Of a DNA stretch of 64,000 nucleotides, positions 20,882-24,143 are shown one piece after another. The stretch covers positions 248,001-312,000 of the forward strand of contig BGKB01000023.1 in NCBI GenBank assembly GCA_003116975.1, written 5' to 3'. Position 1 is the stretch's first letter. Each line of letters starts with the position of its first letter. The translations under genes were made by a program, and so were the position numbers. The notes beneath the pieces were generated by a model. The model was not told where the DNA came from. It searched no databases and saw only the letters and a program-made list of their open reading frames with translations. The stretch comes from Aurantiochytrium sp. KH105. Its lineage: Eukaryota; Sar; Bigyra; Thraustochytrida; Thraustochytriidae.

Positions 20882-21988
20882 CTAGTCATCGCCATAGGTG
20901 CAGGAGCAGGGGCATGTGCAGCCGAGACAGTAGCAGTTGCAAAAGTTGACCGTGCAGCTTTGGTTGAGCAAGTTGAATGTGATAGGTGCGCCATCTTCGA
21001 AATAGAGGTAGTCCAACAAGACCGTCGTGGCAATGATGGAGGCGGCCTGATCTGCAGTGATACCCTTGGGCATTTCGAGCATGTAGGTGTCCGCATCACT
21101 TGCTGCCTCGCGAAGAGCGCCCTGAAAGTCGGAAGGCTTCTTCTTGACGATCTTTCCAACGACATTATTTTGCTCAGCATCCATGAAAAGATTAAACTCG
21201 ATGTTGGTGCAGAGCTCAATGAGGCCACCCAAGCAGCAAGTAGGTCCTCTGGTTGTTGTGTGCACTTCTCCCTCGCGTGTCATGATCTCCATTTGTGGGC
21301 TAAGGCCGCCTCCAAATAGGGGCACTTTCGCGTGCGAGAAGAAGGTCCCGTTGCTGTCCTGAACCTTGACTTCGTGCCGACAAATGTCGAAGCAGGCGCA
21401 GCAGTTCAGCTTGAAGGGCTTGTCGGCGTGCATGATGAAGCTATCTGCCGGCACGCCGTATCGCACGTCCTTGAAGTGAAGCTTGGCTTCGTGGTTCGGC
21501 GAGCAGCAAAGTCTGCAGCAGAGCCCACTTTCCTCCTCGACAAAAATGATCATCTCACCGGTATCCGCATCGAAGACGTCGAACTTGTTTGCCTGCTCGA
21601 AGCAACCGCATCCGAGCTGCTGCGCGGCGGCCTCGGCGGCCTGGAAATGCTGTTTTACCACGAAGCGCTCGCGGCCCTCGAGGGCGGCAAAGCCACCTAC
21701 CATGACTTCAGCTGTCCCACCAACGGGGACGACGACATTTCCTGAACCATTATTGCCAGCGTGTCCTCCTGCAACACCCACGACCTGCGCTTCGGGAATG
21801 TTGGCATCAATCTCCTCGGTGGAGGTACCCTCGCCCTTGATCATCTTGGTCTGCGTCCCAAGCGCTTTTCCTTCTGTTTCTGCTGCTGCTCCTGTTGCTG
21901 TAAGGGCAACTGATGGAAGGAATTCCTCGTGACGCCGCTTTTCGGTTTTGCTCGTTTGGAAGGCAGTTGTTTCGTCCCACGACATCAT
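20882..21988 (-). CDS. Phospholipid scramblase family protein
   Basis: Scramblase fold (PLSCR/LURP-like beta barrel) from about residue 115. Visible elements are FDVFDADTGEMIIFVEEESG with CCRLCC, then FKLNCCACFDICRHEVKVQD (CCxxCCLQE-like region of PLSCR), then VGKIVKKKPSDFQGALREAA with DADTYMLEMP (PLSCR has VGKISKHW...REAFTDADNFGI), and a C-terminal hydrophobic helix IIATTVLLDYLYFED that matches the PLSCR membrane insert. The tail is unusual: eight Cys in about 16 residues (NFCNCYCLGCTCPCSC), a likely palmitoylation or metal site. PLSCR proteins move phospholipids between leaflets or bind membranes through acylation. About 368 residues from the double ATG at 21988/21985; an in-frame ATG at 22051 would add 21 residues. 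The N-terminal 110 residues are low complexity. Confidence 0.88.
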   Translation of the reverse strand: MMSWDETTAFQTSKTEKRRHEEFLPSVALTATGAAAETEGKALGTQTKMIKGEGTSTEEIDANIPEAQVVGVAGGHAGNNGSGNVVVPVGGTAEVMVGGFAALEGRERFVVKQHFQAAEAAAQQLGCGCFEQANKFDVFDADTGEMIIFVEEESGLCCRLCCSPNHEAKLHFKDVRYGVPADSFIMHADKPFKLNCCACFDICRHEVKVQDSNGTFFSHAKVPLFGGGLSPQMEIMTREGEVHTTTRGPTCCLGGLIELCTNIEFNLFMDAEQNNVVGKIVKKKPSDFQGALREAASDADTYMLEMPKGITADQAASIIATTVLLDYLYFEDGAPITFNLLNQSCTVNFCNCYCLGCTCPCSCTYGDD

Positions 21989-22692
21989 GATAGGCCTAGG
22001 CCTACTTCTATCCTGCCAGAGGATCACCCGGAAAATTGCGCCCCCTTGCATGCATGCGCAGCCGACCCGCAGCCAGAGCTAGACAGTGAGCAAGCTGAAG
22101 CAGCCCTCACGAAATGAACGGCCATCTTTTTACGGTCATCTTCTTCTTCTGTCTAGCCACCTCCAGTCACCCTGGTAATTGGCCCAATTGCACGCGCGCG
22201 ACTCGGACTCTGTCGGTGTTCGACGCGGCGCGGCTCGGGAGGCGGACATTTCGCCCCCCCCCCCCCTTCCCCCTCCAAGTTCTACTAGAGCTAGTACTAC
22301 AACTCCTTTCATCACTTGGTCACATGCAGTCCTGCCATAACCCAGCACACTACCTAGCATCCATGCCAGTGATGGTTACAGTCAGGCGCACATAATCTGG
22401 CTATACTTTGGTTCCTCAAAATGCGTGGCGGATGACACGCAAGTCGTCCCCGCGAACTTCATGGTGCCAGAAGAGAATGCACTTGTCCCGGAATTCGACC
22501 CAGCTCGGTACCGTTGGGCACCATGGGAAATAGGACCGGGCTTTTTTGCGTGCGAAAACTCTTGATACTTTGAGCAAGTTGGGCGCGATACGCCGGCAGA
22601 GGCCGAACGGGCGCAGGCAGGGACCGCGGGACGCTGACGCAGGGCTTGGCGCGAGGGAGCGGAGAAGGGCTTGCTTTACGTTTTCAGCCACA
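21989..22692. other. Divergent region between scramblase and the first selenoprotein-like gene
   Basis: About 700 bp between head-to-head genes. It contains a palindromic AGGCCTAGGCCT immediately upstream of the scramblase ATG and a C13 tract at 22254-22266. Frames here show no recognisable protein. Likely promoters for both genes. Confidence 0.45.
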
Positions 22693-22977
22693 ATGGCGGG
22701 AGGGCCCAAGATCAAGGTGGCTTGGTCCCTGAACTGAGACGGTGGTCGCCAGGAGCTCAACACGGCGAAGCAGAGCGTCCTGGCTGTGCTGCCCGATGCC
22801 GAGATAACTGAGGAAGGGGCCGACACGTATCCGATTCGCGTCTCCGTGGAGGATGCTGAAGGTAATGTTATCTGGTCCGGCGACCAGAGACGTCTGTTCC
22901 GCAAATATGCTAGCAAGCGCGCAGCTGCGATCGAGGAGATCAAGGCCGCGGTTCAGGCCCACTTTCAGGATACCTAG
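22693..22977 (+). CDS. Putative Rdx/SelW-like selenoprotein, copy 1 (in-frame TGA = Sec15)
   Basis: A 94-residue frame is restored if TGA at 22735-22737 is read as selenocysteine (U). It begins MAGGPKIKVAWSLN, then U, then DGGRQELNTAKQSVLAVLPD, and ends EIKAAVQAHFQDT. The layout (short beta strand, redox site at the strand end, helix, 'FPDAEI'-like strand, beta hairpin with GNVIWSGD, final helix) and the size fit the Rdx family (SelW, about 87 aa), thioredoxin-like redox proteins. The usual CxxU is SxxU here. The ATG at 22693 has a good context (CCACAATGG). Evidence for recoding is the second copy at 23558 with TGA in the same column, plus a SECIS-like hairpin 65 nt after the TAG. Without recoding, only fragments of about 14 and 64 residues would be made. 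Confidence 0.72.
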
Positions 22978-23035
22978 GATCGGTTTCCAATGACGAGTCC
23001 AAACCACCTTTGTTAAAAGGGCTTGGGCGCAAGAG

Positions 23036-23099
23036 GGCACGATGACTGCGCATCCTTGAAACCCCTCCATTTCCTTGGGGAGGGATCCGCTCGAAGCCT
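23036..23099 (+). promoter_or_regulatory. SECIS-like element in the 3'UTR of copy 1
   Basis: Hand fold: quartet 23043-23046 (UGAC of AUGAC) against 23092-23095 (CGAA), giving tandem A.G/G.A. Then U47.U91 and helix II G48-C90, C49-G89, G50-C88, (C51.C87 mismatch), A52-U86, U53-A85, C54-G84, C55-G83, U56.G82, U57-A81. Next is a 5' bulge GAAA (23058-23061) supplying the unpaired AA. Helix III is CCCC 23062-23065 with GGGG 23077-23080, closing an 11-nt loop. A short helix I may form from GGGC 23035-23038 with GCCU 23096-23099. This is the form-2 eukaryotic SECIS layout. It was not scored by software. Confidence 0.62.
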
Positions 23100-23557
23100 A
23101 TTGTGTCTGAAAGAATACACGACCACGCTTTTCTTGCGCGCAAAACCTTGCACAGAGTGGTTATTTGACAGCCGAGGCCATCGTAGAGGCCTGGATTGAC
23201 CTGGCCTAGCCTAGCTCATGGGCACTAGCAGGCCAACATCAACCGAAAAAGACCAACAACCTCAAATCATCAAATCAAACGATATCATTTCTTTCTCTTG
23301 TTTCTCCTCATGAAAAAAGTAATCGTCGAGCCTTTATTCACACTCCATTCGATCCCTCGCAGAATGACATCTTGAACGTCCTATCGATCAGAAGGTAGGC
23401 TGTCTCTATGGCGAAAGGCTTTCGTGTGACAAGATAAGCAGTCGCCATTGGCATGGCGACGAGAATACCAGTAGTAAACACCCCCACGTCTTGACAAAAC
23501 TCAATCGACCGGTGCGCGTGATCGCTGCTCTCGCGACGAGACCGGCGCTGGCGAGCA

Positions 23558-23854
23558 ATGTCGCGACGCGAGGTTGTGATACGCTGGTCTGCGTGGAACT
23601 TCTCTTGAGACGGGGGCCGCAGCGAGCTCGAGGCCGCGCGGCAAAGCGTCCTGGCCGCGGTGCCAGGTGCACTTGTGCGAGATGTCGAAGGCCAGAGCGG
23701 CAGAGCGGCGCAGATCGAGCTGGTCGTGGAGGACGGCCTCGGCGAGGTAATCTGGGCAGGGGATCAGCTGAGGCTCGCCCGTAAAAACCTGCCGCGGCGC
23801 TCACGAGCCATGACAGAAATCGAAGAAGCCGTACGCCGATTTTATGCTCAGTAG
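23558..23854 (+). CDS. Putative Rdx/SelW-like selenoprotein, copy 2 (in-frame TGA = Sec17)
   Basis: A 98-residue frame if TGA at 23606-23608 is Sec. It begins MSRREVVIRWSAWNFS, then U, then DGGRSELEAARQSVLAAVPG, and ends EIEEAVRRFYAQ. It is a tandem paralogue of the gene 580 bp upstream. Shared columns are W at U-4, UDGGR-EL, A-QSVLA--P, (V/I)-VED--G-VIW-GDQ-RL-RK, and EI--AV near the end. The Cys normally at U-3 is Asn. Copy 2 has a longer turn (EGQSGRAAQIEL) than copy 1. Conservation of sequence on both sides of TGA between two diverged copies argues against a pseudogene or a sequencing error. A SECIS-like hairpin follows 46 nt after the TAG. Confidence 0.7.
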
Positions 23855-23895
23855 TATAACACACTCCATGGAGATTCGTCGAACGAGCAAACCAA

Positions 23896-23960
23896 GGAAA
23901 TGACAGCGCTCCTCAGCAAAGCCCACGCACGGGACAGGGGATCATTGTGCGCTCGATAAT
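23896..23960 (+). promoter_or_regulatory. SECIS-like element in the 3'UTR of copy 2
   Basis: AUGAC at 23900-23904 faces CGAU at 23954-23957. Helix AGCGC 23905-23909 pairs perfectly with GCGCU 23949-23953. A second helix, CCUC 23911-23914 with GGGG 23937-23940, needs an eight-base 3' bulge. AAA at 23918-23920 is unpaired, and CCC 23922-23924 pairs with GGG 23931-23933 around a six-base loop. AUGA-to-AAA spacing is 14 nt here and 13 nt in copy 1, and the order ATGACnGCGC, AAA, CCC, GGG, GCtCGA is shared. Helix II is less regular than in copy 1, so confidence is lower. Confidence 0.5.
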
Positions 23961-24143
23961 GCTCTCGACGATTTTGTGAGACTGCAAGAGGTCTTGCGAA
24001 GAAGATGATGAAGAAGAAGAAGAATACCAAAGGAAAAAAACAAGGTTCAGACGCGGATGCCTTTACCACGCCGGACTTGGCCTTTCATGAAATTCTTCCA
24101 GCTCGAGATTTCTCTTTTATAACCTTTACAAATCAAAGACAAG

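Follow-up and report, generated by a model that had tools for sequence, protein, structure and literature searches.

Two tandem genes with a common in-frame TGA in a thraustochytrid: probable selenoproteins, possibly of an undescribed family

New families of eukaryotic selenoproteins are uncommon. For instance, a survey of algae, in the excerpt available (PMC7539508), reports more than 1000 selenoprotein genes in 42 families, three of which are claimed to be new. The same excerpt describes two of the systems that come closest to the one considered here, namely two clustered SELENOW genes in Chlamydomonas reinhardtii and a UxxU-type SELENOW in Ostreococcus lucimarinus and amphioxus. Additionally, earlier selenoprotein sets include three hypothetical selenoproteins of Ostreococcus (PMC2375036, likewise in excerpt). 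Studies of thraustochytrid or oomycete selenoproteins were not among the matches listed in our literature search, and PMC11227280 makes no mention of SelW/Rdx.

The locus that we describe lies in a window of 64,000 nucleotides of Aurantiochytrium sp. KH105 (contig BGKB01000023.1, positions 248,001 to 312,000), this window being the whole stretch of DNA that was analysed. As in C. reinhardtii, there are two clustered small genes of one family, probably coding for selenoproteins; by contrast, the algal genes are recognised SELENOW genes, whereas ours are not recognisably SelW, a distinction that is drawn from the description of the algal pair in the excerpted text (PMC7539508). A previous sequence-only reading of the window was not aware of a description of such a tandem pair. 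The clustering of small selenoprotein genes, at least, is already known from the Chlamydomonas pair (PMC7539508, in excerpt). The resemblance to the UxxU-type SELENOW, as this excerpt presents it (PMC7539508), is that the first Cys of the CxxU motif is changed; in the UxxU type it is changed to Sec, whereas our genes have Ser or Asn at this place, which leaves each product with one selenol and no thiol. The features of the pair are as follows.

22693..22977, plus strand: gene 1, a probable selenoprotein gene; 94 aa with the TGA read as Sec (U15), frame open except for this TGA, stop codon TAG
22735..22737, plus strand: proposed Sec codon TGA of gene 1 (U15), kept in the other haplotype (contig C45)
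23558..23854, plus strand: gene 2, a probable selenoprotein gene; 98 aa with the TGA read as Sec (U17), frame open except for this TGA, stop codon TAG
23606..23608, plus strand: proposed Sec codon TGA of gene 2 (U17), kept in the other haplotype (contig C45)

The alignment of both products (45% identity over 85 columns, E 2e-23 for this one comparison) places the two TGAs in a single column, with Trp four positions earlier and DGGR directly afterwards in both proteins, and 580 nt separate the stop codon of gene 1 from the ATG of gene 2; all of this agrees with the sequence-only reading, which had described two small tandem genes with a TGA in common. The same residue is found in 40 of 90 aligned codons (Sec column included) and, at 21 of these 40 positions, the codon is different, the differences being distributed 1/0/21 over the first, second and third codon positions. 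This excess of third-position differences makes the plus-strand frame look coding before as well as after the TGA, and it is at the protein level that, as read from the aligned codons, the pair is conserved on both sides. Both genes contain an in-frame TGA within conserved coding sequence, one of the features by which eukaryotic selenoprotein genes are recognised. An antisense reading of the locus was also considered and rejected, as the two antisense ORFs have no mutual similarity (E up to 10) and the changes at the third position favour the plus-strand frame.

The presence of a selenocysteine machinery was examined in the whole assembly (76 Mb, 367 contigs), the search covering tRNA-Sec, SepSecS, SelD and eEFSec. 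Two matches to tRNA-Sec were obtained (73.5 and 70.2 bits) above the curated cut-off, in a search that also gives matches in 14 of 14 control genomes and exceeds the cut-off in five of them; ARAGORN classifies both as tRNA-Sec with the anticodon tca. A third, weaker match proved to be a tRNA-Ser. SepSecS is represented by two matches (408 and 407 bits), which also match solved SepSecS chains, and selenophosphate synthetase (SelD) by two others above the cut-off (276 and 274 bits). The bacterial SelB profile gave no match at its cut-off in the genome; eEFSec was recognised in an ORF of contig C184 that matches solved eEFSec with 448 bits and contains a eukaryotic SelB domain. Additionally, the expected TGA was found in SelT (CTSU; L013/L014), in GPx (NVATTU; L026/L027) and in SelW (CGGU; L015/L016), the last of these having been recognised by visual inspection of a first exon, with an inferred intron after the TGA. 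From these genes, the organism is judged to use selenocysteine, and, of the machinery that the sequence-only reading had proposed to look for, tRNA-Sec, eEFSec and selenophosphate synthetase are present. As a side observation, one of the selenophosphate synthetases (L033, C170:105340-106290) is part of an ORF of 1070 aa with a VLVGGG motif upstream; this upstream part resembles, we presume, a nucleotide-binding oxidoreductase, and the ORF is perhaps a fusion. The synthetase starts with GCGAKVG, so that Cys or Ala, rather than Sec, would be its residue.

Candidate SECIS elements were sought with a home-made scanner (RTGA quartet, followed at 9-15 nt by AA, a stem and NGAN), which gave single matches in the stretches of SelT and SelW and in those of both GPx haplotypes. 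Between 22681 and 24300 of the window it gave two matches, one behind each gene of the pair.

23042..23095, plus strand: SECIS-like core of gene 1, 65 nt past its stop codon; ATGA quartet, apical-loop AAA, 3' CGAA
23900..23957, plus strand: SECIS-like core of gene 2, 46 nt past its stop codon; ATGA quartet, apical-loop AAA, 3' CGAT

It was also observed that all six of these elements (2176 in L014; 1854 in L016; 3780 in L040 and 3586 in L041 (reverse strand); 23042 and 23900 in the window) start with RTGAC and carry AAA 13-15 nt after the quartet; the C that follows the quartet may be a signature of the lineage. A strict pattern, shared by the elements of SelT, SelW and GPx, was defined as RTGAC with AAA at a distance of 12-15, E of -12 or lower and 8 or more arm pairs, the range of the AAA distance having been set by us to take in gene 1 (13; in SelT, SelW and GPx it is 14-15). 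On both strands of the window, this pattern is found only at the two places behind the pair; it is absent from 22 other loci of the genome (165,846 strand-bases), some of them overlapping or allelic, and occurs six times when the single bases of the window are shuffled 20 times (1.28 Mb). With looser settings (E of -13.5 or lower, 9 or more arm pairs), 10 places are found on the 128 kb of strand, among them the two of the pair. When the matches of the loose scanner in the window are ranked only by energy, 11 are better than that of gene 1, the elements of genes 1 and 2 being the 12th and approximately the 15th of 33. The hairpins of genes 1 and 2 have energies of -16.6 and -13.9 kcal/mol, respectively, and those of the known families are stronger than both (-32.1 for SelT, -26.7 for SelW, -25.1 and -29.0 for GPx), while the folding z-scores are -1.38 (gene 1) and +1.03 (gene 2). 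The SECIS-like fold of gene 2, which includes a 7-nt bulge, is the best fold in a stretch of 71 nt and is not so in one of 91 nt. An Rfam search for SECIS between positions 21500 and 25000 gave no match, and equally none at the SelT, SelW and GPx loci. In short, the hairpins behind both genes are SECIS-like according to our own scanner and their conservation between haplotypes (see below), but their predicted folds are weak.

The pair is present again on contig C45, with 94-97% identity over the compared pieces. Because the genes for SepSecS, SelD, Rdx and GPx also come in pairs in this genome, the copy on C45 is most simply explained as the other haplotype, and both TGAs are kept in it. With stretch borders chosen by us, differences between haplotypes are seen at 126 of 1,174 positions (11%) in the non-coding stretches from 22200 to 24120, compared with 3 of 165 in the two SECIS stretches (p 2.7e-5), 4 of 285 in the coding sequence of gene 1 (p 8e-9) and 1 of 90 in the codons before both TGAs (p 6e-4). 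The SECIS stretch of gene 1 (23030-23106) accounts for one difference in 77 positions, a change that, by the scanner, adds a pair to the stem; that of gene 2 (23888-23975) has two in 88 and an identical core. The changes in gene 1 are three synonymous ones and the replacement of its final Thr by Ala. In gene 2, 16 of 297 positions differ, and a second haplotype alignment gives 14 substitutions, distributed 3/2/9 over the codon positions. The C45 copy of this gene (C45:294204-294505, L008, minus strand) has lost one base after the TGA and carries a net insertion of 9 bases, its TGA and SECIS core being kept; judging from these gaps, the allele is either broken (a null allele) or misassembled. 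Gap lengths not divisible by three were also found when the haplotypes of the NOC3, scramblase and kinesin genes were compared, and none in the Laa1 gene.

On these grounds, the recoding of both TGAs as selenocysteine is very likely: the machinery, the SECIS-like elements and the conservation between haplotypes support what the sequence-only reading had claimed. We hold with high confidence a model in which a tandem duplication would have produced two selenoprotein genes, whose in-frame UGA would be read as Sec by tRNA-Sec(UCA) and eEFSec, each under the direction of a SECIS hairpin in its own 3' UTR. As neither protein contains any Cys, the Sec selenol would be the only redox chalcogen of each product. 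Both products would be small one-selenol redox proteins and, again because Cys is absent, would depend on an external thiol, for example glutathione, to be reset. The actual insertion of Sec, the redox role and an Rdx-like fold are what we infer for the pair; both proteins are presumably cytosolic, as no signal-like N-terminus was recognised by eye.

The reading that survives best beside the recoding model, though we regard it as improbable, is that the TGA is a true stop, with the conserved protein starting downstream or the genes being in decay. The one-base deletion in the C45 allele of gene 2 and the weakness of the SECIS-like folds would be in accordance with it. A downstream start, however, finds no in-frame ATG after the TGA within the conserved part: gene 1 has no in-frame ATG other than its first and gene 2 only one more, near its end (23810), so that a start at a downstream ATG cannot explain the conserved region, and the alternative starts previously read as ATG at 22786 and 23660 are both GTG. 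Against this reading also stand the codons before the TGA, almost unchanged between haplotypes, the haplotype changes in gene 1 (synonymous or at the last residue) and the residues adjoining the TGA, which are kept between the paralogues.

Still less probable is the removal of the TGA by splicing. Gene 1 does have 15 GT-AG spans that keep the frame and include the TGA, and gene 2 has 31, the smallest having 36 and 30 nt, respectively (range searched, 60 nt before to 200 nt after the TGA). However, an intron of this kind would remove the AW...UDGGR.EL residues around the TGA, which are kept between the paralogues with synonymous differences, and it would leave the SECIS-like elements unexplained. 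Finally, the assignment of a standard amino acid to UGA, through a variant code or general readthrough, has in its favour only that the frame runs on past the TGA, and we give it hardly any credence, since three long frames of the window (2589, 2407 and 3603 aa) are free of TGA, which speaks against a general reassignment, and tRNA-Sec and SECIS-like elements are present.

Where the sequence-only reading fares worse is in the assignment of the pair to the Rdx (SelW) family. Neither protein matches Pfam Rdx (PF10262) with E up to 10, and the seven places that the Rdx profile finds in the whole genome, also with E up to 10, do not include the pair, while SelT of the same genome does match PF10262. 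Searches of Pfam and NCBIfam returned chance-level names or nothing for both proteins, and those of the PDB, by sequence or profile, chance-level matches only. In place of the CxxC or CxxU that characterises Rdx proteins, the motif at the Sec is SLNU in gene 1 and NFSU in gene 2, with Ser and Asn, respectively, at position -3, where Rdx proteins have Cys. When the pair was aligned by hhalign with nine Rdx sequences, a probability of 22% was obtained over 57 columns, with the Sec on the column of the second Cys, a match that was in register in only one of eight settings. Its score was reached by none of 500 column shuffles and, in another setting, by 7 of 300; control scores were 10.3 for a single thioredoxin and 10.6 for the reversed Rdx profile, against 24.0 for the Rdx profile. 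Taken singly, the nine members gave 0.1-3.0%, mostly out of register, several of them matching the Sec region by their far end, and the 2ljk row gave 1.1% over 32 columns roughly in register. SelT of this genome reaches 92.7% with the same nine-member profile. An Rdx-like relationship of the pair is, from these alignments, a lead, not a result.

Some likenesses were noted by eye. As in the SELENOW/Rdx family (SelW, SelT, SelH, Rdx12), the proteins are close to 90-100 aa, the selenol follows a short hydrophobic stretch close to the N-terminus, and there is an aromatic residue four positions before the Sec (Tyr in SelW of this genome, Trp in the pair). A later GxVIW stretch of the pair is also seen, again by eye, in an Rdx-like protein of the genome (L011). 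By contrast, the pair differs from SELENOW/Rdx in lacking CxxU, any Cys and a Pfam Rdx match, and the genome possesses an ordinary SelW (CGGU) and an ordinary SelT (CTSU) besides it. The L011 protein deserves a separate mention: it belongs to the Cys-type Rdx proteins (CCKC), has a long N-terminal part and is found at two places (L011, C25:68739-68966; L012, C71:57838-58065) beside the SelW and SelT of the genome. It closely resembles solved Rdx proteins of the bacterial type, with 101 bits to 2obk. A bacterial origin is possible for it.

In its own genome, no relatives of the pair were found other than its alleles. Searches with a peptide pattern gave 221 stretches in prokaryote genomes and 21 in viral contigs, none of which was confirmed as a relative, and no homologue with Cys in the Sec column was found in these prokaryote genomes or viral contigs. 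The pair is a probable new selenoprotein family, the hypothetical selenoproteins of Ostreococcus being known to us by description only (PMC2375036, in excerpt). In its fuller form, the proposal of an undescribed eukaryotic family, probably labyrinthulomycete, with one Sec and no Cys and represented by diverged tandem paralogues that each have their own SECIS, is one towards which we lean with some reserve. If true, a Cys-free protein with one selenol would offer a clean system to learn what a lone selenol does without a resolving Cys. Additionally, the pair would add the thraustochytrids, which according to the literature listing are used for DHA production, to the groups with described selenoproteins.

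With respect to the surroundings, the long open frames around the pair code for a Laa1/HEATR5-like protein, a scramblase, NOC3, a kinesin and a dynein heavy chain, the last of which may reflect a flagellate stage. Elsewhere in the assembly, matches to the PfaA profile were observed on two divergently placed ORFs (C72:305786-314912 and C155:166452-175544). The match reaches 930 bits, below the cut-off of 1010, and an ORF of 2081 aa located approximately 5 kb away on the opposite strand matches the same profile. By this profile, the ORFs suggest a PUFA synthase of the thraustochytrid type, and thus probably a labyrinthulomycete, the genes of such a synthase being, as we take it, arranged divergently in this way.
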